From positions 1-64,000 of the forward strand of contig JAPLLY010000017.1 of the NCBI GenBank assembly GCA_026387315.1: 64,000 nucleotides of DNA. The letters are read 5' to 3'. How positions within the stretch are numbered: the stretch's first letter is position 1; every line of letters begins with the position of its first letter. Both the position numbers and the translations under genes were made by a program. Origin of the DNA: Candidatus Omnitrophota bacterium (GTDB lineage Bacteria > Omnitrophota > Gorgyraeia > Gygaellales > Profunditerraquicolaceae). The notes under the pieces were generated by a model that was not told the DNA's origin, searched no databases, and saw nothing but the letters and a program-made list of their open reading frames with translations. Below are positions 13,689 through 36,463 of the stretch, piece after piece.

Positions 13689-14366
13689 ATGAGTAGTTGG
13701 CAAGTAGTATTACTAGAGCCCGCGCGTATGGTTTTGGCGCAAATTAGCCTATTTATGGTTAATGCGTTGCTGGTGATTATTATTTTGCTCATTGGTTGGT
13801 TACTTTCTAAAGTGATTAGGTCTGTGGTCAGTAAAACCCTTAAGACAGCTAAGATTAATGAGTTATCCAGCCGGATTGAGTTGGATAAGTTATTGGGTAA
13901 GGGGGGGATAACCTATACTTTATCCGATTTAATTGGAGTAATTTGTTATTGGCTAGGGCTTCTAATAACGTTTATGGTTGCGGTTAATTCCGTAGGCCTG
14001 ACGATAGCCGCGGATTTATTAAATAAAGTTGTTCTTTATATCCCGAATGTTATTGCCGCTTTGTTTATTCTGATCTTAGGGATGTTCGTATCAACTTTAT
14101 TAAAGAATATTGTGCAAACCGCGGCCAGTAACGCGGGCTTAAACCAGGGCAAGCTTTTAGCCCAGGTGGTCGAGACAGTGGTTATTGCTTTTGCCATTTT
14201 CGTGGGATTAGAGCAATTGCAAATTGGTATTCGGATAACTGAACTGACTATCTCTATTGTATTAGGTTCTCTGGGTTTAGGTTTAGCTCTGGCTTTTGGC
14301 CTAGGCTGTAAAGATATCGCCGGCAAATTTGTCGCCGAACTAACAGATAAATTAAGGAAAAAGTAA
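13689..14366 (+). CDS. Membrane protein with conserved TM-helix repeats (MscS-related)
   Basis: A 225-residue protein with about five membrane helices, including VVLYIPNVIAALFILILGMF and SIVLGSLGLGLALAFGLGCK. This glycine-patterned pair is typical of the conserved-TM-helix repeat family and resembles the pore helix of small mechanosensitive channels, but there is no soluble MscS beta domain. AAAGGAGG is upstream of the ATG. It is transcribed alone, between its own promoter and terminator. Confidence 0.65.
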   Translation: MSSWQVVLLEPARMVLAQISLFMVNALLVIIILLIGWLLSKVIRSVVSKTLKTAKINELSSRIELDKLLGKGGITYTLSDLIGVICYWLGLLITFMVAVNSVGLTIAADLLNKVVLYIPNVIAALFILILGMFVSTLLKNIVQTAASNAGLNQGKLLAQVVETVVIAFAIFVGLEQLQIGIRITELTISIVLGSLGLGLALAFGLGCKDIAGKFVAELTDKLRKK

Positions 14367-14483: not shown

Positions 14484-14540
14484 ATGAATAAAAACAAGCG
14501 TTTCTACATACGCACGTTTGGATGGCCGTTGTCCAATTAA
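14484..14540 (+). pseudogene. miaB: 5' remnant of miaB cut off by element integration
   Basis: GGGAAAGAGAT then ATG at 14484. The frame reads MNKNKRFYIRTFG and then leaves the MiaB sequence (WPLSN, stop at 14540). Joined to the sequence from 60347 it would give RFYIRTFGCQMNVRDSEV, a textbook MiaB N-terminus. So this is the native beginning of the gene, now an 18-codon stub. Confidence 0.88.
14499..14531. other. attL: left junction of the island in miaB
   Basis: Host miaB on the left, element DNA (GCCGTTGTCC) on the right of the shared GGATG at 14520-14524. Compared with attR (60326-60351), CGTNTCTACATACGCACNTT is also shared. The differences fall at codon positions that keep the protein similar, so the resemblance to the left of GGATG is probably because both encode MiaB residues. 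GGATG is the best candidate for the exchange core. Confidence 0.8.
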
Positions 14541-14595
14541 CAGTAGCACGATGCGCAGTCTTGCCGAGGCGGCGGTGGGGGCGGATTAACACATT

Positions 14596-14627
14596 CGTCA
14601 TCCCGAGCCCCGTAGGGCGAAGGATCT
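14596..14627. repeat. Dispersed repeat CGTCATCCCGAGCCCCGTAG
   Basis: A 32-base copy (ends GGCGAAGGATCT) of a scattered bacterial repeat type. It lies inside element A, so the repeat was mobile after the element arrived, or came with it from a similar genome. Confidence 0.6.
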
Positions 14628-14643
14628 AAGCCAGCGACAGATT

Positions 14644-14688
14644 AAATCCCTATGACTGTGCCGGACGGCATAGGAATAGGGTTTTTTG
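14644..14688 (+). terminator. Terminator-like hairpin
   Basis: Outer stem AATCCCTAT/ATAGGGTTT with an inner TGCC-GGAC-GGCA hairpin, then TTTTTT. It could end transcription entering the element from miaB. Confidence 0.6.
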
Positions 14689-14985
14689 TTTACGGGTCAT
14701 TGGAAGCCGGTGTCGGGTGAGGGTCGGGCGAGGCGCGAGGAGTCAGTGATGGTGGTCAAAAAAATTGATGTCAATGTCAATTCAACGGGTGTCTGGGCAT
14801 CTATTCAGAACGGCGCAAACAATTGTTCCTAGACGGTAAACCGGCGTTTTTAGGGGTGTTCAGCAGGCGTCTGGGATCATCAAAAAGGGCGTTTTTTAGT
14901 GACATGAAGTGACATAAATGTGTCGTAATTACTATATACCTTTTGCGACAGCATAAAGGGGCCTTGCTAATGTTCAGTTTGCGCT

Positions 14986-15009
14986 AATGTTCACTAAATA
15001 GTGAACATT
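14986..15009. repeat. Perfect 24-bp palindrome
   Basis: AATGTTCACTA-AA-TAGTGAACATT. It is followed by GTTACGCG and preceded by TTTGCGCT. It is likely a protein-binding site. Confidence 0.7.
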
Positions 15010-15125
15010 GTTACGCGAAAATCGTGTCACAAAAAGTATATAGTTTTTCTGACAAAATGTGGTACTTGATAATCCGCATTTATTAAAAATATCGATTTTA
15101 TACAGATTTACGCTCAAATAATTTA

Positions 15126-15166
15126 TTGACAAGACAACTGTTGTGTTCTATACTATCGAACAGTTG
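15126..15166 (+). promoter_or_regulatory. Promoter and operator of the MNT/HEPN pair
   Basis: TTGACA at 15126-15131, 17-base spacer, TATACT at 15149-15154. An inverted repeat CAACTGTT (15135-15142) / AACAGTTG (15159-15166) straddles the -10 box. This is a typical place for autorepression by an antitoxin with a DNA-binding domain. Confidence 0.75.
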
Positions 15167-15195
15167 TATTATCAAATAGAACAGGAGATGAAAAT

Positions 15196-15822
15196 ATGCT
15201 GATCCCGGCCGGAAGGAAAAAGATGCTGGAGATATTCCTAAAAGATCCTTTTAAGGAGATCCATTTAAGAGAGATTGCCCGTCAATCAAAATCCTCGCTT
15301 GCCAATGTGGACAACTCAATGCGGTTATTCGTGAAGAACGACATGTTTAAACGCAATGAAATGTCGCATTCCACGTTTTTTAAGCCTAACCTTGAAAACG
15401 ATGAGACCATAAAGATATTCGAGCTATTGGAACTTGATCGGCGTAAAACATTTTATGCCAAGAACAAGAATATAGCTCGCCTCATTAAAAAATACGCAGA
15501 TTCTATTATAGAGCTTTCAAACAAGAGGATCCAGCTTGTCATTCTTTTTGGTTCTGTAGCAAGGGGCGAATGGGCTAAGGGTAGCGATATTGACATATTG
15601 GCGGTTGTTCCGGATAAAGAAAACAGCATCATTGATATATTAAACAAAGCCAAGACAGATGTCAGTCCGCTTTTAGAAATAAGGCCGATAAGTACTACAA
15701 CAAAAAAGTTTATTGATGGTTTTAAGGCCAAGACCGAGTTCTACGATAATCTGTGGAAAGATCGCATTGTGCTGTATAGCGAATTTTTGTTCTGGCAACT
15801 TATACGAGAGGGAGGCAAATGA
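15196..15822 (+). CDS. Nucleotidyltransferase (MNT) antitoxin with N-terminal winged helix
   Basis: Residues 1-75 form a winged helix (EIARQSKSSLANVDNSMRLF). Residues 110-150 hold the minimal nucleotidyltransferase motif LFGSVARGEWAKGSDIDILAV (GS...DxD). MNT proteins of this kind neutralise a HEPN toxin by AMPylation, and the partner starts 2 bases after the stop. The winged helix probably binds the inverted repeat at 15135-15166. A clear ribosome site (AGGAGATG) precedes the start. Confidence 0.82.
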   Translation: MLIPAGRKKMLEIFLKDPFKEIHLREIARQSKSSLANVDNSMRLFVKNDMFKRNEMSHSTFFKPNLENDETIKIFELLELDRRKTFYAKNKNIARLIKKYADSIIELSNKRIQLVILFGSVARGEWAKGSDIDILAVVPDKENSIIDILNKAKTDVSPLLEIRPISTTTKKFIDGFKAKTEFYDNLWKDRIVLYSEFLFWQLIREGGK

Positions 15823-15823
15823 T

Positions 15824-16321
15824 ATGCCCGAGAACTTAGAGCGAATTTTACAAGGATGTTTTCATCCAAAAGAAGGCAGGCCTAATCTGCAAAAAGTACC
15901 GGTTAGCTCAGAACGGGCGCAACAACACATCGACAAAGCGCACAGTAACCTTCGAGCGATGAAGATGATGTTTGACGGTGACTTGTTCGATTGGACGATT
16001 ATTTGTGGATATTACGCAATGTATCATGCTGTCTTGGCGGCTCTTTATAAAATAGGCATCCGTGCTACAGCGCATTACTGCGCGCTTGCGGCGTTTAAGG
16101 AATTTTATGTCAGGCGAGGGAAAGTAAAGCCTGAATTTGTAACATATATAAATCGCGCCAAACAGCTTGAACAGAAATATTCCGAGACGTTAGATAAGGC
16201 TCAAGAGAATAGGGTTGTGGAGCAATACGGCGTTGAAATTATCACTAATGACGATGCCGAATGGATTATTGAAGATGCGAAAGACTTCGTGCTGAAGATT
16301 GAAGAAGTGCTGGCATCATAA
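15824..16321 (+). CDS. HEPN-domain protein, toxin partner of the MNT gene
   Basis: A 165-residue HEPN protein: four-helix core with DWTIICGYYAMYHAVLAALY (typical helix 2) and an Arg-His pair (RATAHYCAL) in the place of the RX4-6H ribonuclease motif. The ATG at 15824 has GGAGG 8 bases upstream; the in-frame ATG at 15713 lies within the MNT gene and is not used. The pair would stabilise the element or act in phage defence. Confidence 0.78.
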   Translation: MPENLERILQGCFHPKEGRPNLQKVPVSSERAQQHIDKAHSNLRAMKMMFDGDLFDWTIICGYYAMYHAVLAALYKIGIRATAHYCALAAFKEFYVRRGKVKPEFVTYINRAKQLEQKYSETLDKAQENRVVEQYGVEIITNDDAEWIIEDAKDFVLKIEEVLAS

Positions 16322-16385
16322 AGGAAAGCATGAACCTGAAAAAACGGTGAATTACCGCAATTTACAATTAAAAATATTGGCATCA

Positions 16386-16416
16386 ATTCCGGGCAATTCC
16401 GGGGACACATCACTTA
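16386..16416. repeat. Left inverted repeat of the transposase unit
   Basis: AATTCCGGGCAATTCCGGGG then ACACATCACTTA. The reverse complement of 17115-17146 is nearly the same sequence. Such REP-type ends are recognised by the transposase between them. Confidence 0.72.
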
Positions 16417-16421
16417 ATTCG

Positions 16422-16450
16422 TTGACATAGCCATTTCCTGCCGCTATAAT
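16422..16450 (+). promoter_or_regulatory. Consensus promoter of the transposase gene
   Basis: TTGACA (16422-16427), 17 bases, TATAAT (16445-16450). The start codon comes 8 bases after the -10 box, so the mRNA is probably leaderless. Confidence 0.75.
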
Positions 16451-16457
16451 CTCTCTT

Positions 16458-17117
16458 ATGGCAAGAATGGCTCGGATTGTTATACCAAGCATACCCCACC
16501 ATATTACCCAGCGCGGTAATAGATCTCAAAAAGTTTTCTTCAGTGACCAAGACAAAATTTCCTATCTTAACCTATTGCATAAACATGCTCAAGGCGCAGG
16601 ATTAAGCTTTTGGGCGTATTGTCTTATGGATAATCATATTCATTTAATCGCTGTTCCTGAAAGAGAAGATAGTTTGGCTAAAGGAATAGGCGACACCCAT
16701 AAATATTATACGCGTATGATTAATTTCAGGGAAAACTGGAGAGGATATTTATGGCAAGGAAGGTTTAGCTCATTTCCGTTGGATGAAAAATATCTTTACG
16801 CGGCAATTCGTTATATAGAACGTAACCCGGTAAGAGCAGGCATTGTAAAAAGGGCAGAGGATTATGAGTTTTCAAGCGCAAAGGCGCATGTTTATAAAAA
16901 GCAAGATTCTCTGTTAGTTGATAATTTTGTTATTAAAGAGATAAGAGATTGGAAGGCGTTTTTAGCAGAAGGCGACAAAGAACAGGATACAAAGCTTTTC
17001 AAGAAACACGCGCGAGCCGGCAGGCCATTAGGTAAGGAAGGATTCATAGAAAATCTAGAAAAGGTGACCGGTAGGATTTTGAAACCACAGAGACCAGGAA
17101 GAAAGAAAAAGAAATAA
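16458..17117 (+). mobile_element. REP-associated tyrosine transposase (Y1/IS200-like)
   Basis: A 219-residue HUH enzyme: HITQRGNRSQKVFF near the start, the metal-binding HIH in MDNHIHLIAVP, and the Tyr region DTHKYYTRMIN. WQGRFSSFPLDEKYLYAAIRY and YIERNPVRAGIV are hallmarks of the RAYT family. It is flanked by matching REP-like inverted repeats (16386-16416, 17115-17146). It is probably a domesticated or single-copy RAYT unit inside element A. Confidence 0.9.
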
Positions 17118-17146
17118 GTGATGTGTTCCCGGAATTCCCCGGAATT
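17115..17146. repeat. Right inverted repeat of the transposase unit
   Basis: Starts TAAGTGATGTGTTCCCGGAA and contains the transposase stop codon. Three further copies of GGAATTCC(C) follow up to 17157. Confidence 0.72.
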
Positions 17147-17293
17147 CCCGGAATTCCGCTATAATGCATGTTGATACTAAGGAATATTGGCAGTCTGATT
17201 TGACTCTGGATTTGTACGACGGTACGCCGGATAGGATAAAATAACGTATGAATAGCAGAAAGACTATTCCTAAAGAGTATTGAGAAGACTAAT

Positions 17294-19087
17294 ATGAAAA
17301 AGATACAAAAGAAGAGTCAGGGGCGCCTGCGCATTGGCGATGATTGGAACGCTATTACAATTATCGCGCTTTCTCAGAATAATCCGTTAAAGGCGATAGC
17401 TGAATTTGTGGAAAACAGTATTGATGCTCAAGCACGCCAAGTTACCATTATCCGCGGTAAAGAACGCGACCAGCAATATTTAAAGGTTATTGATGATGGT
17501 CAAGGGATTCCATGCGCTGAAGATGGCATACCTGATTTTAAATATGTCGCGACCCATATTTGCGATTCTCTGAAACGTCGCTTAAAACAGGAGGGTGTTG
17601 GGAATATCCAAGGGGAATTTGGTATAGGACTTTTGAGTTTTTGGACAGTTGGCCATGAGTTAATGATAATATCGTCAGGCAGGGATGGAAAAGCGTATCA
17701 GATGGAAATGAAAAAAGGTATGCCTGGTTATGTAGTTATTCTCCGGCCCCGCCTCTTACCTGTAAAGGGCACGCAGTTGATAATTTCCCGTTTGCTTGCA
17801 GGAATTCGTAATCTTAATGGTGAAAAAATTCAGCACTATCTAGCCTCGGAACTTAGGGATAGAATCAGGCATTCGGGCGTTAAGATAAGAATAATTGATC
17901 GTACCAGCCGCCTTGAACTTAATGTTGAACCTCGCCAGTATGAAGGTCAGCTTATTCATGATTTACCCCAGATAAATACACCTTTTGGTGATGTATATGT
18001 GGAACTATATCTTACCGAAAGAAATCCGGAAAACTGTATCAGCCTATTTCGTTCGGGAACGCGCGTATTGCCCAACATTACTGTTTTAGATCTCTTCCAG
18101 TGCGAACCGTGGACTTCCGGTTATTTTCAAGGAGTCATTGATGTTTCGTTTTTACATCTTACTCCCGGTACCCGAGATGGAATTATTCAGGATGAGCATT
18201 TCGCGGTATTTTGCGATTCGTTGATTAATCTTAAAGAACGCCTGAATGTAATAGTATCAGAACAGAGTAAGGCCGAAGAAGAACGTATGAGCAAGAGTAT
18301 ACTTCGTTCTGTACAAAAGGCATTTTTAAATGCAATGCTAAGCTTGCCCCGAGAAGAATATGATTGGTTTGATATGCCTGAAAAAAGCACTTCGCGGATA
18401 TCATCCGTAGAAAGGGCTGAAAATTATTCTTTGACTCTTGAAGGAGAGCATCATAGTGAAAGAAAACAGGCGGCGCAAAAGGAATTTTTCGAAGTTGCGG
18501 GTCCGTTGTTTTCTGCCAGAATTCAGCCCGGTTCAGCGATTTTACCTGTAAATACGACAAAAACTTTTCGTGCCGTTGGACTAGATCGTAGCAAACGGCA
18601 GATAGAACAGAATCTTTCATATGAATGGGCAATCATTGAAGGAAAAGGACAACTTGATAAAAAAGACGGAGAATTCGTTATCTTTAGCGCTTCTGATGAA
18701 CCCGCCTTATGTAAGTTGAAGGTTGCCATTCGGCAGCTTGAAACAGTAACTGAGGCGGAAAGCATAATTACGATTGTAGACTCTTTACTGAAAGCTCCTG
18801 TTGAAAACAATGAATTTTCAAAAAAAGGTTTGCCAAGTTATACATTAGAAAGCTCCGTCGGCCAGATGTGGCGCTCGCGTTACGATGAAAAACGCAACAT
18901 TATAATAATAAATAGCGGCCATCGCGACTTTATTTACGCTGGAAAAGAGCGTATGAGAAAGCTGCGTTACATTTCTCGGCTTTTTGCGAAAGAACTTGTG
19001 CTCCATAATTTTGTTGGTGAACCTCCGGAACAACTTTTAGAGCACTTGTTGGAATTGTCGATGTATACAGAAGATAATTTGAAATGA
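17294..19087 (+). CDS. GHKL-type ATPase (MutL/MORC-like), large
   Basis: 597 residues with a GHKL ATP-binding module at residues 25-130: N box IAEFVENSIDAQA, G1 IDDGQGIP, G2 GEFGIGLLSFWTVG. The rest (residues 190-580) has no motif I recognise. GHKL ATPases of this kind occur in restriction-linked and other defence operons, so a role in defence is plausible but not shown. A separate GHKL gene occurs in element B (25648). There is no strong ribosome site. Confidence 0.72.
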   Translation: MKKIQKKSQGRLRIGDDWNAITIIALSQNNPLKAIAEFVENSIDAQARQVTIIRGKERDQQYLKVIDDGQGIPCAEDGIPDFKYVATHICDSLKRRLKQEGVGNIQGEFGIGLLSFWTVGHELMIISSGRDGKAYQMEMKKGMPGYVVILRPRLLPVKGTQLIISRLLAGIRNLNGEKIQHYLASELRDRIRHSGVKIRIIDRTSRLELNVEPRQYEGQLIHDLPQINTPFGDVYVELYLTERNPENCISLFRSGTRVLPNITVLDLFQCEPWTSGYFQGVIDVSFLHLTPGTRDGIIQDEHFAVFCDSLINLKERLNVIVSEQSKAEEERMSKSILRSVQKAFLNAMLSLPREEYDWFDMPEKSTSRISSVERAENYSLTLEGEHHSERKQAAQKEFFEVAGPLFSARIQPGSAILPVNTTKTFRAVGLDRSKRQIEQNLSYEWAIIEGKGQLDKKDGEFVIFSASDEPALCKLKVAIRQLETVTEAESIITIVDSLLKAPVENNEFSKKGLPSYTLESSVGQMWRSRYDEKRNIIIINSGHRDFIYAGKERMRKLRYISRLFAKELVLHNFVGEPPEQLLEHLLELSMYTEDNLK

Positions 19088-19208
19088 TGAAACGGCTTAA
19101 ATTAAGGATGCGTTACGATCTTTTGTAAAATGGGAGGTTGCTTTATGAAGGATTTTTTTAAAGGAGGACGAATCGCAGCAGAGATTAGAACGATTTTTTG
19201 AAATATTA

Positions 19209-19574
19209 TTGAAAGTAGATTTACGAACTCTCGAAAGATTAAAAGATAAGAAAGCGGAAAAAGAAGAAAAAATAGATGTTCAGATTGAAGAATACGATAA
19301 GAGAATCTTCAGACGGAAAACAGAAAGATCAGTTAAGCGGTATAATATGATTCAAACTGCAAGAATTTTAAAAGTTTCCCGGGGCACATTATATTACTGG
19401 ATAAATAAAGGCTGGATTAAGCCAAGGCATGATTATAGAGGTTATCCTATTTTCACGACTTTAGATATCGAGAATATAATTAAGTGGAGAAATAAAATAG
19501 ACAGTTTTGTACACTTAATTGGCGAAAAAGGCGATGAAACCAGAAAAAAGTATGTTTCTTTGACTATTGGTTAA
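19209..19574 (+). CDS. MerR-like helix-turn-helix protein, orphan recombinase partner
   Basis: Residues 45-100 (QTARILKVSRGTLYYWINKG...HDYRGYPIFTTLDIENIIKWR) align with the 61-residue gene at 58531 that overlaps the serine recombinase (AAKVLGVHEMTIRYWIKKKW...YDYRNYPVF). Here a charged coiled coil precedes it and no recombinase follows. The start shown is a TTG, and the frame stays open some way upstream, so the true N-terminus is uncertain. I read it as a remnant of the integration module of element A. Confidence 0.65.
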   Translation: MKVDLRTLERLKDKKAEKEEKIDVQIEEYDKRIFRRKTERSVKRYNMIQTARILKVSRGTLYYWINKGWIKPRHDYRGYPIFTTLDIENIIKWRNKIDSFVHLIGEKGDETRKKYVSLTIG

Positions 19575-19694
19575 TCTATATTTAACCCTAATATTAATAA
19601 GGAGATATGAAAATTCGCAGTCGCGTTTATTCAACGCTTTGTACAGTTTTAGACACGGTGACGACGATTTCGTAACTGATTGGAGAAAGGCAGG

Positions 19695-19790
19695 ATGCGT
19701 AAAAAAGTTTTTGTTCGGACATATGGATGGCCGTTGGTGCAAGTACCGCGTGATGATTTTGGGGATAATAAAGAGGGTAAATGGCTGTGA
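19695..19790 (+). other. Third miaB-like junction (hybrid att site) with a 31-codon frame
   Basis: GAAAGGCAGG then ATG at 19695, reading MRKKVFVRTYGWPLVQ. The first part again mimics a MiaB N-terminus (compare RFYIRTFG at attL). After GGATG (19725-19729) comes GCCGTTG, as at attL. This fits the right end of element A, carrying its own replacement miaB start, joined to the left end of element B. Upstream of it (19575-19694) there is only a 22-codon frame at 19607 behind AAGGAG. Confidence 0.6.
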
Positions 19791-19797
19791 GTGAAGG

Positions 19798-19812
19798 GGA
19801 TAGGATAAAATA
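19798..19812 (+). repeat. 15-base repeat GGATAGGATAAAATA
   Basis: Identical copy at 17229-17243. In both places it forms the last codons of a short frame ending DRIK-stop, so it may be the shared tail of a lost gene. Confidence 0.45.
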
Positions 19813-19824
19813 GAATTCGTTTCG

Positions 19825-20946
19825 CTATGACGTTATCTTATTTTCTAATATATTCTTAAAATTCTTGTATAGCACTTCATATCTATTATGTTTCCATGGC
19901 GCCTCTGGAGGACCTTTCACATATTCTTTTATCCATATACATTTTCCATCCTGATAATGCCTAGGATGTCCCCGGACCCAAACCCTATATTTCAAATTCC
20001 ACGAAGCAGAACGCTCTTGCTCTTCCTCTTCATTAACATAACTCTTCTTAACTTCGATAAGATAATATGGTTTTAAAGGTGCGATTGGTTTTTTCCCATC
20101 GTTCATTCTTTTCCTATTGATACGTGCTAAATCTTTAGGGCTATGTGTCTCTCTATCCTTCTTCAAAACTACAACATTTTGTGCATTGATGTAACTTATG
20201 AGATTAAGAGCTAAATCAATTTTCTTTTTTCCTTCAGATAAAACATTTTTATCAACAATGCCAGTTACATCTTCCTTTTCCCATTCCAAGCTGCCCTCTA
20301 ATGTTTCAAGATTGCTTCTGAGTATTTTGTTGTTACGATAATCTATGTCATATAATCTCCTCTCTGCCTGAAATCTGAAATTAGGCAGAGTACTGATATC
20401 AAACGTCAAATCTACCACTCCCGTTTCTTGTTTCACGAAAGATGGCTCTTTGTTAAAGAAACTAATACAATATCTTGTTAGAGGGATGTTCTCTTTATCT
20501 GTAATATTCGAAAGATAATCCCTGGCAATATTTACTGCTCCCGTGTTTAGATCAGAGGCAGTGGTATAGAGCGCACCAAAAGTATCTATTGTTTTTCCAC
20601 TCATTAATTTAAAGCTTACTGGAGAGTTGAATTGAAAGAATATTTGAGGAAAGGGTAGTTTGACCGACAGCGCATAATTTATATTTTCATGTTTTACATT
20701 TTGCAGGCTGTCTTGTGTCATCTCGTCTATTAAGAAGACTTTCGATTCTCCTAGAGAATTTACCATGCTTTTTCTGCTAATAAGGCCCAATAGAACCGAT
20801 GCGCCTAAGTCGCTTCGTACAAATTCATCATAACACAGTTTTTTTTCGCTTTCGGGAATTTCTATCTTTAAGCATATTTCTTCCAATCTGGATTCCTGCT
20901 GATTTATTTCTTCAGTCAGTTTTCTTGTCAAATCGTCATAAAACAT
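19825..20946 (-). CDS. Unknown protein; C-terminus weakly like AcrVA2-type phage/plasmid proteins
   Basis: 373 residues, no signal or membrane segment, first 30 residues coiled coil. Near the end is YRVWVRGHPRHYQDGK followed by CIWIKEYVKGP. This pattern (RGH, then a basic/aromatic stretch, then IWI..Y.KGP) recalls the C-terminus of the widespread AcrVA2-like family of mobile elements, but the rest is not recognisable. It is the only minus-strand gene near the left end of element B, next to the junction, a position often taken by accessory or anti-defence genes. Function not assigned. Confidence 0.4.
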   Translation of the reverse strand: MFYDDLTRKLTEEINQQESRLEEICLKIEIPESEKKLCYDEFVRSDLGASVLLGLISRKSMVNSLGESKVFLIDEMTQDSLQNVKHENINYALSVKLPFPQIFFQFNSPVSFKLMSGKTIDTFGALYTTASDLNTGAVNIARDYLSNITDKENIPLTRYCISFFNKEPSFVKQETGVVDLTFDISTLPNFRFQAERRLYDIDYRNNKILRSNLETLEGSLEWEKEDVTGIVDKNVLSEGKKKIDLALNLISYINAQNVVVLKKDRETHSPKDLARINRKRMNDGKKPIAPLKPYYLIEVKKSYVNEEEEQERSASWNLKYRVWVRGHPRHYQDGKCIWIKEYVKGPPEAPWKHNRYEVLYKNFKNILENKITS

Positions 20947-21205
20947 TTTTCACAACACTCAGAAATCAGCTGAGATGCCTGAACACCCCTTAATTTTTCT
21001 TGTATTTCCTTATTTATAAGCTTTTCTATTTGTAACTACTGAAGAGTAATATATAAGCGGTGATTCAAACCGTTTGCGGGATAAAAAAGTTAAATATTTA
21101 TACTTGGTTTATTTCACAGGGTAAGTACTTAGAAAGTAAAGGGGATGGGGTAACCTCTCCCCTTTAAAAATATTTTCTGTTCAAGTGATTTCTAATGACT
21201 TGTAT
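20947..21205. other. Gene-free stretch
   Basis: Between the minus-strand gene at 19825 and the promoter at 21206 I see no gene. A G/C hairpin (AAAGGGGA...TCCCCTTT, 21138-21165) without a T-run is the only structure. Confidence 0.5.
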
Positions 21206-21249
21206 TTCTGATGTGTTATAATGTGAAATAATGTTAAATTAAGAAAAGG
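21206..21249 (+). promoter_or_regulatory. Repeated element promoter, copy 1
   Basis: TTCTGATGTGTTATAATGTG then AAATAATGTTAA. It has an extended -10 (TG-T-TATAAT) and no good -35. It is nearly identical to 25126-25179 and 25383-25424. The direct repeat ATGTKAARTA/ATGTTAA after the -10 may be an operator. It serves the exporter operon starting at 21318. Confidence 0.65.
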
Positions 21250-21317
21250 ATAGCTGGCTTGAAGCGAAGGAGTTAGAGAAATATTTTAATACAGATAAAT
21301 CTTAAAAAAGGGATAAT

Positions 21318-21932
21318 ATGAACAAAAAAGTAATCTTCATTTTTATTTTGACTATAATCGCGCTGGTTATCCTTGCCTTATTCAGTTTTGGACATTTATC
21401 TGACAAACGCAATGCAGCAGGAATCAATCCGTCATCTTTAAAGCCAGTATCTACAGAAACGGCGAATAAAGAAAATGCCTCAGTAGCTTGGAATCTATAT
21501 CGCAATCGGGATGTAGTGGAAAACTATTATAGCGTTCAGCTGCCGCAAAAATGGAATGTCAATGCAGGTAAGAAAGCGGGGAGTTACTCTGTAAATTTCT
21601 CCGATGGCAACGGCACAGTGGTCTTAATGGATGTGCCTGACAACAGCACTTTGGAATTATTTATATTAAGCCAGCAGGAGCCGCAGCTTAAGAAAGCGAT
21701 CCCCGGGTATCATAGAGTTGATTACAAAAAAATTTTAGTTTCGGGCAACGAGGCCTATGAGTTGATATATCAAAATACGAAAGACAATGAAGCATATGAG
21801 ACTCTGAAAACATATATTGCTGGTTCTGATCAAGCCGGAGTTCTTACATTTACAGTAAAGCAATCATCTTTCAATGAAACCTATTCCTTATTAAATTTAA
21901 TTATTCAAAACTTCAAATGGGAGAACAAATGA
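21318..21932 (+). CDS. Membrane-anchored extracytoplasmic protein (PsbP-like fold suspected)
   Basis: 204 residues: a single N-terminal helix (VIFIFILTIIALVILALFSFG), a Ser/Thr/Glu-rich linker, then a domain from residue 60 (YYSVQLPQKWNVNAGKKAG...YSVNFSDGNGTVVLMDV) with the strand pattern of PsbP-like proteins. It begins the operon that includes an ABC transporter, so it may be an accessory or immunity protein on the outer face. AAAAAAGGG precedes the ATG. Confidence 0.5.
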   Translation: MNKKVIFIFILTIIALVILALFSFGHLSDKRNAAGINPSSLKPVSTETANKENASVAWNLYRNRDVVENYYSVQLPQKWNVNAGKKAGSYSVNFSDGNGTVVLMDVPDNSTLELFILSQQEPQLKKAIPGYHRVDYKKILVSGNEAYELIYQNTKDNEAYETLKTYIAGSDQAGVLTFTVKQSSFNETYSLLNLIIQNFKWENK

Positions 21933-22132
21933 GGCAGGTATTTCTTTTTGTTTCTTTGGCGATTATAGGCATAGGAGTATACCTGAAATTTTTCTATGAT
22001 GTGCCCGACGCCCAGGAAACTATTAATTTTTTCACGAGCTGGTTTTTCATTATTGTGGGAACATCAAGCCTGCTGATTAATCTGTTTTGGGGCTCTCCTA
22101 AAAATAAACATTCCCACAAAGAACAAAAATGA
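21917..22132 (+). CDS. Small two-helix membrane protein
   Basis: 71 residues with two membrane helices (VFLFVSLAIIGIGVYLKFFY and FFIIVGTSSLLINLF) and a charged tail. It overlaps the preceding gene by 16 bases and the ABC ATPase by 4 (ATGA), so it is translated as part of the exporter operon. Family unknown. Confidence 0.6.
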   Translation: MGEQMRQVFLFVSLAIIGIGVYLKFFYDVPDAQETINFFTSWFFIIVGTSSLLINLFWGSPKNKHSHKEQK

Positions 22133-22857
22133 AAACGATAATTTCTGCAAACAACCTCATAAAATCATACGGCTCAATCAAGGCAGTTGATGGCTTGAGC
22201 CTTGAGATTGCCCAAGGTGAATTTTTTGGCTTCTTGGGCCCTAATGGGGCAGGCAAAACAACCACTATCAGAATGCTAACGGGCATTATTGAGCCCAATA
22301 GTGGCAAGATAACAATTGCAGGGAACGCTTACCCTAATCTGAAACCCATCTTGAATATGATTGGTGTTGTTCCTGAAAGCAGGGGCTTTTATGATTGGAT
22401 GACTGCAAAAGAATATTTGCTGTTTTTTGCAAATCTCTATGGCATCTCCAATCCTCATAAAAAAATTGATGAGCTCTTGGAAAAAGTCAATCTGTCAGAT
22501 AGAAAAAACAGCACGATAGGAACATTCTCTCGCGGCATGAAACAAAGGTTAGGAGTAGCAAGGGCACTTGTCAATGACCCTAAGATTCTTTTTTTGGATG
22601 AGCCTACATTAGGGCTTGATCCTCAAGGGCAGGAGGAAATCCAGAATCTCTTAAAGCAATTAAACAAGAGCGGAGTAACAATATTTCTTTCATCACATCA
22701 GCTTAACGAAGTTTCCAATCTATGCTCAAGAGTGGCTATTATCAATAAAGGGAGGCTGGTCGTGCAGGGAACAATTGCTGAGCTGCAAAAGAAGACAAAT
22801 CTTGCAGGCTCATTAAAAGACATTTTCCTTGCCTTAACCAATAATAATCATGTTTAG
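22129..22857 (+). CDS. ABC transporter ATP-binding protein
   Basis: 242 residues with the complete ATPase set: Walker A GPNGAGKTT, Q-loop region, signature FSRGMKQRLGVARAL (S-R-G-M variant of LSGGQ), Walker B ILFLDEPTLGLDP, and the switch His in SSHQL. It belongs to the CcmA/NatA-type exporters that pair with ABC-2 permeases, which follows directly. The exported substrate is unknown; self-protection against peptides or drugs is common for such pairs. Confidence 0.92.
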   Translation: MKTIISANNLIKSYGSIKAVDGLSLEIAQGEFFGFLGPNGAGKTTTIRMLTGIIEPNSGKITIAGNAYPNLKPILNMIGVVPESRGFYDWMTAKEYLLFFANLYGISNPHKKIDELLEKVNLSDRKNSTIGTFSRGMKQRLGVARALVNDPKILFLDEPTLGLDPQGQEEIQNLLKQLNKSGVTIFLSSHQLNEVSNLCSRVAIINKGRLVVQGTIAELQKKTNLAGSLKDIFLALTNNNHV

Positions 22858-23620
22858 AAATATCTGGCTTAAAGAGCTCCGAGAACAATTATATACGTGG
22901 AAAGGCACGCTGTGGCTTGTCATTTCTTCCTTGGTTTTTAGCCTGATAAGCTATCTCCTGCTTACTGACAAGGAATTAAGCCTTCTTGACCAGACAGAAA
23001 TGATGTGGATGCTTGCAAAGGTAATCATCGGCATCGGGCTTTTGATTATCAGCATTGTTGCCTCTTCGATAATCAGCAATGAATTTGAAAAAGAAACTGC
23101 CGAGAGCTTGTTTCTTTCTCCTATTAAGATGAAAGACTTTGTACTGGGCAAGCTGCTTGCGTCATTGACGATGTGGTTCTTTATTTTCATTGTCTCTATT
23201 CCATACATACTTGTTACTTCAGCAGGCACTAAATTATTTTTCCCTTTCCTTGCTTATATTTTCTTACTTGGGACTATCGGGGTATTGGGATTTATCATGC
23301 TTATTTTTGCAATCAGCCTGCTTTTCCGCTCAAGCAAAAATACCCTGACAACTTCTTTAATCGTTCTTCTTGCTTTTGCCATTCCTTCATTGTTTTCTAC
23401 CACTCTTAAGAATAATTCTTTTGCCTTGGCATTAAGCAAAGCCAATCCAATAGACAATATATTTTCCTCTCTCGATAATGTTTTGGTTGATTATCAAACA
23501 TCATTATTGCAGAATGCTCAGTTTATTTTTCCCTTAGTGCTATTTTGCCTGATAACTCTGATATTTCTTGTGTATGCCTCAAAAAGATTTAAGCGGGCAG
23601 GGGTGGTTAAACATGAATAA
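22850..23620 (+). CDS. ABC-2 type permease
   Basis: 256 residues with about six membrane helices, and the family segment ISNEFEKETAESLFLSPIKMKDFVLGKLLAS linking helices 2 and 3. It overlaps the ATPase gene by 8 bases. It forms the membrane half of the exporter. Confidence 0.88.
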   Translation: MFRNIWLKELREQLYTWKGTLWLVISSLVFSLISYLLLTDKELSLLDQTEMMWMLAKVIIGIGLLIISIVASSIISNEFEKETAESLFLSPIKMKDFVLGKLLASLTMWFFIFIVSIPYILVTSAGTKLFFPFLAYIFLLGTIGVLGFIMLIFAISLLFRSSKNTLTTSLIVLLAFAIPSLFSTTLKNNSFALALSKANPIDNIFSSLDNVLVDYQTSLLQNAQFIFPLVLFCLITLIFLVYASKRFKRAGVVKHE

Positions 23621-24167
23621 TACTAAGACGTTTTTTATGATTGGAGTGCTGGGTGGTCTTCTGATTTTGGGCATGGCTTATTGTTATGCCGACAATCAAA
23701 CCGCAAACCAGCCTTTAACTTTGAAAATTCTTTCTGAGAAGACATTAAGCGGAACAGCCGGGGATTTTACAACAGTAAATGCCCAGATAAGCAATTCAGG
23801 ATTGCAGCCGTTAAATGACATTACCACTTACATTTCGCTCGTAGATGAATCAAATAAAATGCCTGTTGATTTAGAAGATTGGAGCGCAGAGAAAGGGTTG
23901 TTCATCGGAACAATTGATTCTAACCAGACGCTTCCCCTGAATTGGAAAATCCATTTCGTCAAAGCAGGAAAATATTCATTGATTATTGTTGCAGAAACGG
24001 CAGGGCAGGAGATCCCAGAGGTAAGCAGCATTGTTCATTTCACAGTAAAGCCGAAACTGAATCTGAATCCCGGACAGGTTTTGCCTGTTGCTTTGGGAAC
24101 GCCTATTGTTGTGCTTTTTATAATGTTGCTTCTTAATTACAAGAGGAATTTGTATAAATCAAACTGA
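23613..24167 (+). CDS. Exported protein with NEW3/CARDB-like beta domain and C-terminal anchor
   Basis: Start at the ATG at 23613, overlapping the permease stop. Signal peptide (FFMIGVLGGLLILGMAYCYA), then one Ig-like domain (DFTTVNAQISNSGLQPLNDI...LPLNWKIHFVKAGKYSLIIVAE), then a helix VVLFIMLLLNYKR with a basic tail. Such domains often accompany ABC exporters as periplasmic or cell-surface subunits. Confidence 0.6.
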   Translation: MNNTKTFFMIGVLGGLLILGMAYCYADNQTANQPLTLKILSEKTLSGTAGDFTTVNAQISNSGLQPLNDITTYISLVDESNKMPVDLEDWSAEKGLFIGTIDSNQTLPLNWKIHFVKAGKYSLIIVAETAGQEIPEVSSIVHFTVKPKLNLNPGQVLPVALGTPIVVLFIMLLLNYKRNLYKSN

Positions 24168-24241
24168 ATATGGACTTGTAGTCCATAAGCTTATTAAACA
24201 GTGTTCTAATTTATAAAAAATTACTAAAGAGGAAGGAAAAT

Positions 24242-25081
24242 ATGGACTCATTAAAAATCAGGCAGATGTTGAACAAGGTTCCAGAAGTCACACTTTACTT
24301 TTGGATAATTAAGGTTTTGTGCACTACAGTAGGAGAGACGGCAGCAGACTATTTGAATGCAACACTTCATTTTGGGCTAAGCGGGACATCGCTTGTTATG
24401 GGCGCAATGCTTCTTGTTGTTCTGTTCTTTCAATTCAAATCTAAAAAATATCATCCAGCAACATATTGGCTCGCAGTCGTTCTGCTTAGCATTGTCGGAA
24501 CCTTGATTACCGACAACTTGACAGACAACCTCGGGATTTCTTTGGAAACTACTACTATTGTATTTTCCATTGCGCTGGCATTGACCTTTGCGGCGTGGTA
24601 TGTGGTTGAGAAGACATTGTCCGTGCATTCCATTGTAACGACTCGCCGTGAGGCATTCTACTGGCTGGCTATCCTGTTCACTTTTGCTTTGGGCACTGCC
24701 GCAGGTGACCTTAGTGCTGAAAAGTTTGGCTTAGGATATTTGACCTCGCTGTACATATTCGCCGGACTTATTGCATTCGTGACCATCGCGCACTTTGCTT
24801 TTAAGGGAATCCTGAAATTGGAACATAAGCACCAGTCTAGGAATGCAGTACTTGCTTTCTGGTTGGCTTACATTTTGACTAGGCCGCTGGGCGCATCTAT
24901 TGGAGATTTCCTTTCACAGGCTCGCGCTGATGGCGGGCTGGGTTTGGGGATGACCATAACAAGCGCAATCTTCCTTATTGCAATCTTGGGCTTGGTTGTT
25001 TATCTCACTCTTACGAGAAAGGACGAGATTCCTCCTGAAGTTGTTCAGGCAGAAGAGGCTGAAGTAACTCAAAAAAGATAG
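24242..25081 (+). CDS. Multi-pass membrane protein (COG4705-like)
   Basis: 279 residues with about eight helices in a twofold repeat. The halves share a motif of the form T.GE.AADYL / T.AGDLSAEKFGLG / LGASIGDFLSQ, which puts acidic residues within the membrane. This matches the uncharacterised membrane-anchored COG4705 family. AGAGGAAGG precedes the ATG. The function is unknown; it may be transported with, or protected by, the exporter operon just upstream. Confidence 0.65.
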   Translation: MDSLKIRQMLNKVPEVTLYFWIIKVLCTTVGETAADYLNATLHFGLSGTSLVMGAMLLVVLFFQFKSKKYHPATYWLAVVLLSIVGTLITDNLTDNLGISLETTTIVFSIALALTFAAWYVVEKTLSVHSIVTTRREAFYWLAILFTFALGTAAGDLSAEKFGLGYLTSLYIFAGLIAFVTIAHFAFKGILKLEHKHQSRNAVLAFWLAYILTRPLGASIGDFLSQARADGGLGLGMTITSAIFLIAILGLVVYLTLTRKDEIPPEVVQAEEAEVTQKR

Positions 25082-25125
25082 AGGCATCTGAAACTAAAGA
25101 GCAATCCAGCATAATTCAATAGGTT

Positions 25126-25179
25126 TCTTTTTTTTGATGTGTTATAATGTTAAGTAATGTTAACTCAGGAAAAGGATAA
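25126..25179 (+). promoter_or_regulatory. Repeated element promoter, copy 2
   Basis: TTGATGTGTTATAATGTTAA then GTAATGTTAACTC. Same extended -10 and direct repeat as copies 1 and 3. It serves the small gene at 25202. Confidence 0.65.
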
Positions 25180-25201
25180 ATGACTATTTAGGTAAGGGGT
25201 T

Positions 25202-25372
25202 ATGAAAGATATCTTCAGCAAAAAGGAACAAATCAAAAAATGGTCCGAGTTGTACGGCAGGCAGATATCTGAAGAGGAATATGAGAAGATCAGCCGGAAC
25301 CTGGGCGGCTTCTTTGGATTGCTCGATGAGTGGAAAAAGAAGAAAGCGCAGAAGAAAAAGAGGGAGCCATGA
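25202..25372 (+). CDS. Small charged protein
   Basis: 56 residues, starting MKDIFSKKEQIKKWSELYG and ending in a lysine-rich tail (EWKKKKAQKKKREP). Largely helical, no known family. A ribosome site (AAGGGG) and its own copy of the repeated promoter support it being real. It resembles small phage regulators in size. Confidence 0.5.
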   Translation: MKDIFSKKEQIKKWSELYGRQISEEEYEKISRNLGGFFGLLDEWKKKKAQKKKREP

Positions 25373-25382
25373 TTTTGCTATA

Positions 25383-25424
25383 GGCTTTTTTCTGAATGTG
25401 TTATAATGTTAAGTAATGTTAAAT
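25383..25424 (+). promoter_or_regulatory. Repeated element promoter, copy 3
   Basis: CTGAATGTGTTATAATGTTA then AGTAATGTTAA. It serves the excisionase-like gene at 25451 and probably the defence operon behind it. Confidence 0.65.
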
Positions 25425-25450
25425 GATAATATCAAAGAAGGTGCGCGGTG

Positions 25451-25627
25451 ATGATGAAGATTGAGACTTATTTAACAGTCAGGCATGTTGCCAAGCAGTT
25501 AGGGCTTACCGAGTATCGGGTGAGGCAGCTTATCCGCGAGAAGCAGATTCGGGCCACAAAGATAAAGCAGTGGAGAATTAAGCCTGAGGATTTAGATAAT
25601 TTTATTAAGAGCCGGAGCAATATATAG
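25451..25627 (+). CDS. Excisionase-family helix-turn-helix protein
   Basis: 58 residues: TYLTVRHVAKQLGLTEYRVRQLIREKQIRATK...WRIKPEDLDNFI is the classic HTH_17/excisionase domain. It could be a recombination directionality factor or a repressor. Its placement behind promoter copy 3 and ahead of the GHKL-restriction run suggests control of that run and possibly of the other two copies of the promoter. Confidence 0.72.
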   Translation: MMKIETYLTVRHVAKQLGLTEYRVRQLIREKQIRATKIKQWRIKPEDLDNFIKSRSNI

Positions 25628-25647
25628 GATATTAAAAGAGGTGTAAT

Positions 25648-27279
25648 ATGGCTAAGGATAAAGAAAAAGAGGAAGCGTTGAAGTTGCAGATTGGTCAAGA
25701 GCAGATTGTTCATATGAAGGTTGCTGCTCAAATTATACAGCATTTAAGTAAGGGTATATATAGTAATCCTGCAAACTGTATTAAAGAATTGATAAGCAAC
25801 TCTTTTGATGCCGACGCAAGCGAAGTCATCGTAAGAGCTAAGCCAGAGTTTGATACCTTTTCAATTACAGACGATGGCGACGGGATGAATTATGTTGATT
25901 TCAGCACTAAATTCTTGTGGATAAGCAGGTCAGATAAAAGGGATAAGAGAGAGAATACCCTAAAGTTTAAAAGACCAATAATTGGGAAAATTGGCATTGG
26001 ATTTATATCTGTTTCTGAAATCTGCGATAAAATGACAGTAATTTCTTCAAAGAGAGGAGAAAACTTTAAGTTTCAAGCAGAAATTGACTTTGAAAAATTT
26101 AAGAAGACAGTTCATCAAAAAAAAGATTTCTACGAAATAAGCCAAGTTAAATTAACCAATTTAGAAGAAGAAAAAAATTCACACTATACTATAATTCTTT
26201 TAAGCGGGTTAAGTAAAGATTTTAAGGACCTATTGGAAGATAAAGATATTCATGAAGCTGGGATTAAAATTGCTACTTTTGAAGGTAGAAAATTTGAAGG
26301 CATTATTGAGGAAATTGAAAAAAAGTACTTAGACTCTTCAAAGGATATCGGAGGATATTGGCGTTTAGTATTGGATGTGGCAAATACTGTTCCTGTGCCT
26401 TACTTAAAGGAAGGACCGATCAAAGTAAAGAATCCAAATTGGTTTAAACAAGAGTCTAAATCGATTAGTAATTTAAAAAATACCATACATAAACTGAAGT
26501 TTTTGGTAGATTTTGATGGGATAATAATAAAAAAACCAATACTTTTGCCGGGAGAGAAGGACATATTTGATAAGAAAGAAAGTTATGACCTATACTATTT
26601 TGAAGAAGAGTTTAATGATTTTCCTGATGGTTCGAAGCTAAAATTTAGAGGTTATATATACAATCAAGAAAGACAAATTTTTCCTCCTCATCTAAGAGGG
26701 ATAATAATAAGAATCAAGAATACCTCTATTGGTGGTTCTGACCCAGATTTTCTAAGTTACCCATATGCTGAGAAGTTATTTTTGCCTTGGGTCTTTGGAG
26801 AAATATACATAGACGAAGGATTAGAGGAAGCAATGAATATTAATAGAAGCTCATTTATTATAACTCACCCCCACTTTAGAAAATTAAAGAATTATTTACA
26901 TACAAAGCTTCATGCTGAAGTTTTTCCACGATGCAGAGAAAGATATACGGAAAGAAAAGAAGAAACCGAAGTTACTGAGAAGAAATCACGCGAAGAGAAT
27001 ATAAAAGTATATCTAAAAGATGTTTTTAACAAAAATTTTCAAATCAAGCCTCTTGATAAAACAGGAAAATTCCCAGTAGATATAGACATTGAAAAAAAAG
27101 AAGTATTGGTTTTTAAGGGGCATCCTATATTTAAGAAAAAGAAGAAAAAAGAAAAAGATTTACTAGAAGAGGTGCTTATTTTATTCGAAACATCTTACCA
27201 TAATGCGAATGGTGACTTAAGCAAATTGAAAGATTATTTTATTAATAGTTTGAGCGAATGGACAAATCTGAAAAAATGA
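25648..27279 (+). CDS. GHKL ATPase (Hsp90/MutL-like) of the restriction island
   Basis: 543 residues. N box CIKELISNSFDADASEVIV (residues 45-63), G1 ITDDGDGMNY, G2 IGKIGIGFISVSEICDKM. A lysine/glutamate-rich region follows residue 440. It opens a same-strand run with small or negative gaps (methyltransferase-like, radical SAM, hsdM, nuclease, hsdS, hsdR). GHKL ATPases linked to restriction-modification loci are known; they are thought to move or sense DNA. AGAGGTG precedes the ATG. Confidence 0.8.
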   Translation: MAKDKEKEEALKLQIGQEQIVHMKVAAQIIQHLSKGIYSNPANCIKELISNSFDADASEVIVRAKPEFDTFSITDDGDGMNYVDFSTKFLWISRSDKRDKRENTLKFKRPIIGKIGIGFISVSEICDKMTVISSKRGENFKFQAEIDFEKFKKTVHQKKDFYEISQVKLTNLEEEKNSHYTIILLSGLSKDFKDLLEDKDIHEAGIKIATFEGRKFEGIIEEIEKKYLDSSKDIGGYWRLVLDVANTVPVPYLKEGPIKVKNPNWFKQESKSISNLKNTIHKLKFLVDFDGIIIKKPILLPGEKDIFDKKESYDLYYFEEEFNDFPDGSKLKFRGYIYNQERQIFPPHLRGIIIRIKNTSIGGSDPDFLSYPYAEKLFLPWVFGEIYIDEGLEEAMNINRSSFIITHPHFRKLKNYLHTKLHAEVFPRCRERYTERKEETEVTEKKSREENIKVYLKDVFNKNFQIKPLDKTGKFPVDIDIEKKEVLVFKGHPIFKKKKKKEKDLLEEVLILFETSYHNANGDLSKLKDYFINSLSEWTNLKK

Positions 27280-28244
27280 AGTCTTATATCGGTTCGGAAG
27301 ACGATAAGGTTTATAATACCTCTGAAAAATGGTTTGTGAGAGAGAAATGGGCACATTATGCTTTAATTAGAAGGGATAAAAATAAAAGAAAATTTATCAG
27401 ATTACTAACCTTTACTTCTATTAAAGCTTACGATATTATCTTCTTATCTAAAAAAGGTCTTATTCAGACAACAGAAACTGGTTACTCCCCTGAAAGTATA
27501 GCCTTCTGTGAAAAGAATTCTGAAAGATACACAAGAATCTATAACTGTCTTCCTGGTGCCAGAGGATATCAAGGAACTTTTGAAGAATTTGTCGGTGCGG
27601 GAAATATAGGATTTACTGATCGAGCTAAAAAATGGTTTCCTTTTGACGTTATAAATCTCGATTTCTCAGGCCCAATGTTTAGACATGAAGACAACAATAC
27701 TTCTAAAGTTATGGATGCCATATTGAAGATGTTTATGATACAAGAGTTTACGAAACAATCATTTACTTTATTCTTATCTGTACCGGCTGTTAAAAAATGG
27801 GATGATGATACAGGTAGAAAACAACTCTCAGACTGCCTTGATGTTAATTTAGCAAGTAAAGAAACAATAAAATTCAAAGAAGCTTTTGAACAAAAATATC
27901 CTTCCAAACAAATTAATTCTTATTATCAATTCCTATTAGTTACAGTTCCTAAAATCATAATTAAATATGGTCAAAGCAAAAATTTTGATGTTGATTGTTT
28001 AGATAGATTTACATATATTGGCGAGAACGCTAGCACTAAAATGGTAAGTTTTATTTTTGATTGTGAATACAAAGGATTGCCAGATGGATACGGTGGAGAA
28101 AATCCTGCGAGTATATTAGCAAAAGTTTATCCGGATAGAGTGTTAAAAATTATAACACAAGAATACATTGATATTAATAGGTTCTTTGAAGAGCAGCCAG
28201 AGATTAAGAAAAAATGTATAGAATACAAAAAGCAAGTAGCTTGA
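27258..28244 (+). CDS. Unknown protein with methyltransferase-like (Trm1/TcmP-type) segment
   Basis: 328 residues. The order TFTSIKAYDIIFLSKKGLI...GYSPESIAF...FEEFVGAGN...FDVINLDFSGPM resembles a SAM-methyltransferase Rossmann fold whose fourth strand ends NLD-x-SGP, like the DLDPFG of Trm1 or partner proteins of the three-Cys type. No catalytic assignment is possible. It overlaps the GHKL gene by 22 bases (an alternative ATG at 27276 gives an ATGA overlap), so the two very likely work together. Confidence 0.5.
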   Translation: MDKSEKMKSYIGSEDDKVYNTSEKWFVREKWAHYALIRRDKNKRKFIRLLTFTSIKAYDIIFLSKKGLIQTTETGYSPESIAFCEKNSERYTRIYNCLPGARGYQGTFEEFVGAGNIGFTDRAKKWFPFDVINLDFSGPMFRHEDNNTSKVMDAILKMFMIQEFTKQSFTLFLSVPAVKKWDDDTGRKQLSDCLDVNLASKETIKFKEAFEQKYPSKQINSYYQFLLVTVPKIIIKYGQSKNFDVDCLDRFTYIGENASTKMVSFIFDCEYKGLPDGYGGENPASILAKVYPDRVLKIITQEYIDINRFFEEQPEIKKKCIEYKKQVA

Positions 28245-28263
28245 TAAATTTAACAGAGGTAAA

Positions 28264-29406
28264 ATGAAAGTTCTTTTAGTTGAACCTAACTTTCCGATAC
28301 CGCCTAAAAGCAAAAATCATAGGGATTTTTTACCTGTAGGCTTGCTTAAATTAGCAAGCTATCACCGGACAAAAGGAGATGAAGTAAAGTTGGTAAGAGG
28401 GAATCAACATTTTGCAGATTTTATTCCCAATCAAGTCAAGATCACCTCTCTTTTTACCTATTGGTCTAATTATGTATGGGAGAGCGTGAAATTCTACAAG
28501 GAGACATATCCTAAAGCGAAAGTGAGTGTGGGTGGAATATATGCCTCATTAATGCCTGAACATTGCAAGCAGTCAGGTTGTGATGAGGTTTTTGTGGGAG
28601 TTGATGAAAGGGTTGAAAAGTTTAAGCCAGCCTATGACTTGGTGGATGTTGATTATCAGATTGTTCATACCAGTAGGGGCTGTCTGAGAAAATGCAAGTT
28701 CTGCGGCACGTGGAAAATTGAACCAGAATTTGTTTCTAAAAAGAGCATTAAAGATGAGATTTGCAGCAACAGGGTTATTTTTTATGACAACAATCTTTTA
28801 GCTAATCCGCATATAACAGATATTTTGGAAGAATTGAAGAATGCAAAGCATAACGGCAGAGTTGTCTATTCGGAAAGCCAGTGTGGGATTGATGGTAGGT
28901 TGCTTACGCCTGAAGTGGCAAAATTACTGAAACAGGCAAGATTCCTTAGCCCGAGAATTGCGTGGGATCATGGTTATAACCAAAAGAAACTGATAACGAA
29001 ACAGATTGATATGTTGGTTGAAGCTGGCTATCCCAGAAAAGAGATTTATGTTTTCATGATTTATAATTTTGAGCAGGATTATTATGAAATGGTTAAGAAG
29101 CTGAAGCAATGCAAGAAATGGGGAGTTCAGATAGCTGATTGCAGGTACAGGCCATTAAACCAAACATTCGAGCATTACAATCCACGGCAGAAACAGACTA
29201 ACGAGGATTATTATATTCATCCTAAGTGGACAGATAGGCAGATTAAGTCATTCAGAAGAAAAGTAAGGCAGCAAAATATTATGGTGAGGCATGGGTTTAC
29301 CTTTTACAGCAGAAAATTAGAGAGATTGGGAGCAAAAAGGAATCAGGCAGAGATATTGAGTAAAGGGATAGATAAGAACCGGATTTTAGAATTTATTGAA
29401 AAATAG
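28264..29406 (+). CDS. Radical SAM protein, B12-binding-like N-terminus
   Basis: 380 residues. The [4Fe-4S] motif CxxxCxxC is at Cys140-Cys144-Cys147 (SRGCLRKCKFCGTW). The N-terminal 110 residues (MKVLLVEPNF...KVSVGGIYASLMPEH) look like the cobalamin-binding-type domain of B12 radical SAM enzymes but lack a clear DxHxxG. It is placed between the GHKL pair and the type I genes, in the same orientation, so it may modify DNA, or a protein of this island. The substrate is unknown. Confidence 0.75.
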   Translation: MKVLLVEPNFPIPPKSKNHRDFLPVGLLKLASYHRTKGDEVKLVRGNQHFADFIPNQVKITSLFTYWSNYVWESVKFYKETYPKAKVSVGGIYASLMPEHCKQSGCDEVFVGVDERVEKFKPAYDLVDVDYQIVHTSRGCLRKCKFCGTWKIEPEFVSKKSIKDEICSNRVIFYDNNLLANPHITDILEELKNAKHNGRVVYSESQCGIDGRLLTPEVAKLLKQARFLSPRIAWDHGYNQKKLITKQIDMLVEAGYPRKEIYVFMIYNFEQDYYEMVKKLKQCKKWGVQIADCRYRPLNQTFEHYNPRQKQTNEDYYIHPKWTDRQIKSFRRKVRQQNIMVRHGFTFYSRKLERLGAKRNQAEILSKGIDKNRILEFIEK

Positions 29407-29468
29407 GGATTGCGAGAGAAGGAAAAATTATTAAGCCTTTTAAGGTTATTTTTAAGGAGTAGATATCC

Positions 29469-35800: not shown

Positions 35801-35904
35801 TTCTCAGAAAATATGGCTACCCACCCGATAAGCAAAAGAAAGCCACTGAAACTGTTTTGGAACAAGCTACTTTAATCTGCAAAGATTGGGCTGAAATTAA
35901 GTAA
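32812..35904 (+). CDS. hsdR: Type I restriction enzyme endonuclease/translocase subunit
   Basis: 1030 residues, full length. N-terminal nuclease motif [20 protein letters not shown], Walker [16 protein letters not shown] box [15 protein letters not shown] motif III, and the helicase motif VI segment IARVNRVF. The C-terminal helical region binds the HsdMS core. The start overlaps hsdS as ATGA. There is no sign of decay, so the system is probably active. Confidence 0.96.
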
Positions 35905-36328: not shown

Positions 36329-36431
36329 CAATTAAGTAAACAGAAATTGCTTTTAAGCCTTGTCATAAAATAAACTCCTATCTTTCTCCCATCCTTACTC
36401 CTCTCAATCCCTGTTTTCTCCAAAACCCCCA

Positions 36432-36463
36432 TTAATATACTCTGCTGAAAAGCCGATTAAATA
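36432..36463 (+). promoter_or_regulatory. 20-base box plus TATA-like promoter, copy 1
   Basis: TTAATATACTCTGCTGAAAA (36432-36451) then TTAAATA (36457-36463), centred 23 bases before the ATG at 36483. There is no ribosome site between. Confidence 0.65.

Follow-up and report, generated by a model that had tools for sequence, protein, structure and literature searches.

The locus analysed here raises the question of why a start-like piece of the tRNA-modification gene miaB occurs three times in one stretch of DNA, and what the middle copy, inside an island, marks. The window, meaning the whole stretch of 64,000 nucleotides, had been the subject of an original prediction from its letters, which placed a third miaB-type junction at 19695-19790 and read it as the right end of one element, carrying its own miaB start, joined to the left end of another. 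We conclude that the third junction is very probably the seam of two related site-specific elements, A and B, stacked in the 5' end of miaB, of which A would have come first and lost its integrase, with B then entering at the same GGATG. This core is present at three junctions within the window:

14520..14524, + strand: junction 1 (attL), core GGATG, host miaB start joined to the left end of A
19725..19729, + strand: third junction, core GGATG, right end of A joined to the left end of B
60347..60351, + strand: core GGATG, right end of B joined to the remainder of miaB

The window contains exactly two copies of GGATGGCCGTTG, one at 14520 and one at 19725, each on the + strand. The frame over 14484-14540 reads MNKNKRFYIRTFGWPLSN and then a stop, 19695-19790 translates as MRKKVFVRTYGWPLVQVPRDDFGDNKEGKWL followed by a stop, and miaB (60281-61507) shows RTFGCQMN at the position corresponding to the other starts. 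A scan with a motif composed of a [RK]T[FY]G-like start, GGNTG and a left-end tail gave two matches in the window, none in the reversed window and none in 60 Markov shuffles; across all fetched loci (0.91 Mb) it gave 30 matches, which are not 30 distinct sites because loci overlap, versus one in the reversed control. Given the two GGATGGCCGTTG copies and this near-zero background, the predicted third junction is real. The span 19695-19790 had been taken as a start region, which is correct for its first 11 codons, a miaB start, but it is not a gene, as the remainder is the left end of B read in the miaB frame. All three candidate starts are in frame with miaB, and in silico joins of the left halves to the rest of the gene (MNKNKRFYIRTFGCQMN..., MRKKVFVRTYGCQMN... 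and MGSDGKSKGCGKSGLRLYIRTFGCQMN...) stay open in each case, giving ORFs of 398, 396 and 408 aa. The first two starts bound element A, whose features and left flank are as follows:

13689..14366, + strand: host MscS-type channel gene, left flank (Pfam PF05552)
14484..14524, + strand: native miaB start (MNKNKRFYIRTFG), cut off from its gene by insertion and forming the left half of attL (in silico join to miaB gives the 398-aa ORF)
14525..19729, + strand: element A, 5,205 bp, without an integrase
14525..14590, + strand: left end of A, integrase frame GRCPINSSTMRSLAEAAVGAD and stop
15196..15822, + strand: nucleotidyltransferase, antitoxin-like (PF01909, 4.8e-11)
15824..16321, + strand: HEPN protein, toxin-like (PF05168, 6.3e-10, on the longer frame 15713-16318)
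16458..17117, + strand: IS200-like (Y1) transposase (PF01797, 1.8e-10)
17294..19087, + strand: GHKL ATPase (PF13589)
19209..19574, + strand: orphan HTH gene, no integrase after it
19695..19729, + strand: right half of A, second miaB start MRKKVFVRTYG plus core GGATG

Element A has two att ends and no integrase gene, as does a CIME or integrase-less element, which is further defined by being mobilised in cis or trans by another element. Its HTH gene had been described as resembling the HTH partner of the integrase further downstream, and this is borne out, with 49% identity over 55 aa (E about 1e-14) between the products of 19209-19574 and 58531-58716. A gap of 0-55 bp separates the HTH gene from the integrase downstream of it in most integrase loci; in A, 120 bp and then a miaB start follow the HTH gene, which makes integrase deletion the simplest reading. 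Because the HTH gene, normally so close upstream of an integrase, stands alone here, the most likely reading is that A is a relic whose integrase was deleted and that B later inserted over it. A tblastn search with the integrase across the window found no copy besides that of B and none in A, and a search for an integrase remnant between the HTH gene of A and the third junction gave a best alignment score of 33.8, which 4 of 200 shuffles reached, so that no remnant stands out clearly from chance. Two loci look like decay intermediates on the way to integrase loss: genome G073 has an HTH gene, a broken integrase N-terminus and a native-like miaB start, and G054 has an HTH gene, integrase fragments and a right end; in these two genomes the integrases behind the HTH gene are truncated or internally deleted. 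The right half of A resembles the native miaB start, unlike integrase-borne right ends, and might have been acquired in another way.

Element B occupies the rest of the island and carries the integrase:

19730..60351, + strand: element B, 40,622 bp
19730..19795, + strand: left end of B, integrase frame GRWCKYRVMILGIIKRVNGCE and stop, homologous to left ends in G060 and G011
58531..58716, + strand: HTH gene directly 5' of the integrase
58713..60359, + strand: large serine integrase, 548 aa in the integrated state, with miaB providing its 3'-terminal codons and stop
60281..61507, + strand: miaB with a B-derived start (MGSDGKSKGCGKSGLRLYIRTFG), in a different frame from the integrase, whose 3' end it overlaps (TIGR01574, 8e-104; PF00919 and PF04055)

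The integrase of B has the Resolvase N-terminal, Recombinase and zinc-ribbon domains of a large serine recombinase (PF00239, 4e-36; PF07508, 7e-21; PF13408, 9e-12). A scan of genome contigs with it returned only an unrelated 29% match. The cargo of B includes a complete type I restriction-modification system (hsdM, hsdS and hsdR, 29469-35904). At 36400-47300 the window holds genes that give the impression of being archaeal-looking, with a HerA-like ATPase and few Shine-Dalgarno sites, and an adjoining tyrosine recombinase (45998-47224, PF00589); this region may be an element nested within B. A three-gene cluster at 56034-58198 ends in an E1-like protein (57416-58198) that matches PADLOC E1-E2 models and is preceded by genes that appear, by eye, ubiquitin-like and JAB-like, so that the cluster is a possible ubiquitin-like conjugation operon. 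The miaB gene itself is short (408 aa), and because its TIGR01574 match stops at position 372 of 437, its C-terminal TRAM region may be missing.

Under the reading we prefer, A would have inserted at the host miaB start, supplying a new start, and would then have lost its integrase while retaining the HTH partner and the short start MRKKVFVRTYG. B, with its active-looking serine integrase, would have inserted at the same GGATG, between the start supplied by A and the rest of miaB, so that miaB would now begin inside the 3' end of the integrase gene of B. At the level of sequence, this account draws on three in-frame starts, common cores, the independent recurrence of each boundary, and empty and single-insertion relatives; that A preceded B we infer, the order not being fixed by sequence alone.

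Of 384 genomes of the phylum, 41 carry homologues of the integrase (E <= 1e-60), and the comparison genomes are mostly draft assemblies. Among loci with a readable 3' end, almost every integrase terminates either at a left end or at GGNTG within miaB (within mtaB in G294). Of the integrase frames entering miaB, nearly all extend to the same core and have their final codons and stop provided by the gene (VK-stop, AK-stop or AR-stop). The case of G294 (L089, G294:C14) concerns a same-family integrase in mtaB, a miaB paralogue, at the corresponding GGNTG. Comparing miaB loci, the check proposed with the original prediction, recovered an intact empty site in G013 (MscS-type gene, GIY-YIG gene, miaB) and single insertions in G065 and G011. 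G065 has one intact 11.3-kb element with the native start and left end near the contig start, an integrase at 9825-11468, miaB from 11390 and no internal junction, and in G011 the native start carries a lone B-type left end, followed by a methyltransferase and a new miaB start. Junctions of a right half and a left end were also found in G024, G159, G060, G014, G226, G143, G016, G054 and G006, which on short contigs could instead be circle junctions. Both integrases are intact in each of the stacks of G024 and the single-contig genome G159, and in G060 a full element comes after a 5.3-kb segment lacking an integrase, itself preceded by an integrase remnant. A near-identical miaB element, including the integrase, is shared by G024 (L049/L050) and G159 (L097), genomes of different families, in what looks like a recent transfer.

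In G006 the A-type left end is found again, accompanied by a homologous gene for a GHKL ATPase (80% nucleotide identity over 1.76 kb) that ends there beside another miaB-type junction, and the B-type left end recurs in G060 and G011. Because both types recur beside different upstream DNA, both boundaries are fixed at GGATG. Two related elements lie end to end in the window, with the same core bounding each, which constitutes tandem accretion. Single, empty and stacked relatives agree with the predicted joining of the right end of A to the left end of B, and the 19695 frame, sought as an internal gene of single elements, was found in none among the relatives examined. Plasmid and phage collections searched for free circular forms yielded distant recombinases only. 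One linear IMG/VR contig (L133/L134) carries an integrase with its tail, lacks miaB and continues into other genes, so that this could be an attP or a tandem junction; L134 is a phage-like contig whose family integrase runs through the core into the left-end tail.

The alternative that deserves most weight concerns the origin of A, which could be an integrase-less, CIME-like cassette that brings a left end and a miaB start of its own and depends for its movement on an integrase acting in trans from a neighbour, for example B. Integrase-less segments with a left end and a short miaB start do recur, in G060 (3295-8633, about 5.3 kb) and G006 (2256-6447, about 4.2 kb), and the two differ in cargo. 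However, A keeps the HTH gene normally paired with an integrase, which favours deletion, and the relatives yielded no standalone insertion without an integrase whose ends were certainly complete. We consider this origin a reasonable candidate, though less likely than not.

Two further explanations would remove the seam altogether. Given that only 12 bp are common to both left boundaries and that the right half of A lacks an integrase, the seam could be chance or decayed coding sequence within one 46-kb element, with no junction at all. Yet chance matches are expected at about zero, both left ends recur at the same core in other genomes, the single element of G065 is without such an internal site, and relatives point to a seam between different elements and never inside a single one, making this explanation extremely unlikely. 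We regard it as just as far-fetched that assembly wrongly joined two unrelated insertions at a repeat: the window does belong to a 62-contig assembly, but a common repeat of just 12 bp is too short for the usual misjoin, and the same architecture stands on one contig in G024 and in G159. Stacking of A and B remains our preferred reading.

While the original account of the junctions holds, it missed a two-frame overlap between the integrase gene and miaB. In right ends that are carried by an integrase gene, the two reading frames overlap at the crossover, and for this reason miaB provides the final codons and the stop of the integrase in its integrated state. On the other side of the core, the integrase frame stays open for at least 19 codons in all 15 tabulated left ends, and further left ends fit the same pattern, with a tail beginning [DAV][GDEV][RE][WC]. 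Over the first codons of left ends the mean BLOSUM62 score was highest in the integrase frame (1.32), lower in the miaB frame (0.80) and lowest in the remaining frame (0.33), and differences among similar left-end pairs numbered 77, 69 and 122 at integrase codon positions 1, 2 and 3, the pairs in these comparisons being non-independent. Part of this conservation may reflect DNA binding at attP. The third base of GGNTG varies and tracks the left half, as in G143 and G159, whose ILEPS-type integrases have GGTTG, and sequences diverge from the first base after TG, so that TG is likely the crossover dinucleotide.

Because attP would lie inside the integrase gene, a copy in the circle or upstream in a stack would carry the tail. 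The integrase of B is predicted to have 548 aa when integrated and 567 aa in the circular form. For the long-tailed integrase of G159, AlphaFold gave a mean pLDDT of 74, with the tail below 50, so that the model says nothing about the tail. Recombination may rewrite the integrase, with a tail of about 20 or more residues in circle or upstream stack copies and none in the integrated copy, which ends in miaB. Given that the integrated gene overlaps miaB, this swap could be a built-in switch of activity, stability or direction, an idea that we hold tentatively, at somewhat less than even chances.

Arrangements of this kind have counterparts in other systems. The integrase of SXT is a tyrosine recombinase, and the element provides prfC with a new start. 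SCC and SCCmec cassettes use serine recombinases (ccr genes), target the 3' end of rlmH (orfX), form composite cassettes and stack in the target gene. The miaB elements share with them serine recombinases, a composite arrangement and some regions without recombinase genes, but lie in the 5' end of miaB and not in the 3' end of rlmH, and are not SCC elements. For SCCmec, a mecA region without recombinase genes is reported (PMC3637587). SXT/R391 ICEs insert in the 5' end of prfC, where two related elements can lie in tandem (PMC2786100), and thus likewise combine the 5' end of a conserved gene with tandem elements, whereas the large serine integrase at miaB sets the present elements outside that family. 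Dehalococcoides ssrA islands resemble them in using a serine recombinase and a single-copy target gene, with several islands in tandem and the integration module in only some, and differ in their tmRNA gene target and six-gene integration module beside attL; the part of that source used here describes no overlap of integrase and target gene such as the miaB elements have (PMC3146451). Islands and prophages at dusA also enter a tRNA-modification gene at its 5' end, for which they substitute a new one, with a different integrase family and gene; the targets given include rimO (MiaB-like) and not miaB, and tandem arrangement is not mentioned (PMC4482086). In mycobacteriophage BPs, attP lies in the repressor gene and integration alters the C-terminus, the longer form being degraded (PMC4557955), which parallels an attP inside a gene whose product is predicted to change at the C-terminus, although the gene here is the integrase.

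Stacking is thus known in other systems, and the variant here is the miaB integrase family. A limited literature search with narrow terms turned up neither a serine integrase specific for miaB nor an example of integration changing the C-terminus of the integrase responsible, which is weak evidence of novelty. The findings indicate that a widespread integrase family docks at miaB across one bacterial phylum and stacks there repeatedly, with insertions able to accumulate because the broken miaB is restored each time, and with defence-type cargo in this window. The two-frame overlap of integrase and target leads to a testable prediction on how a serine integrase could sense being integrated.
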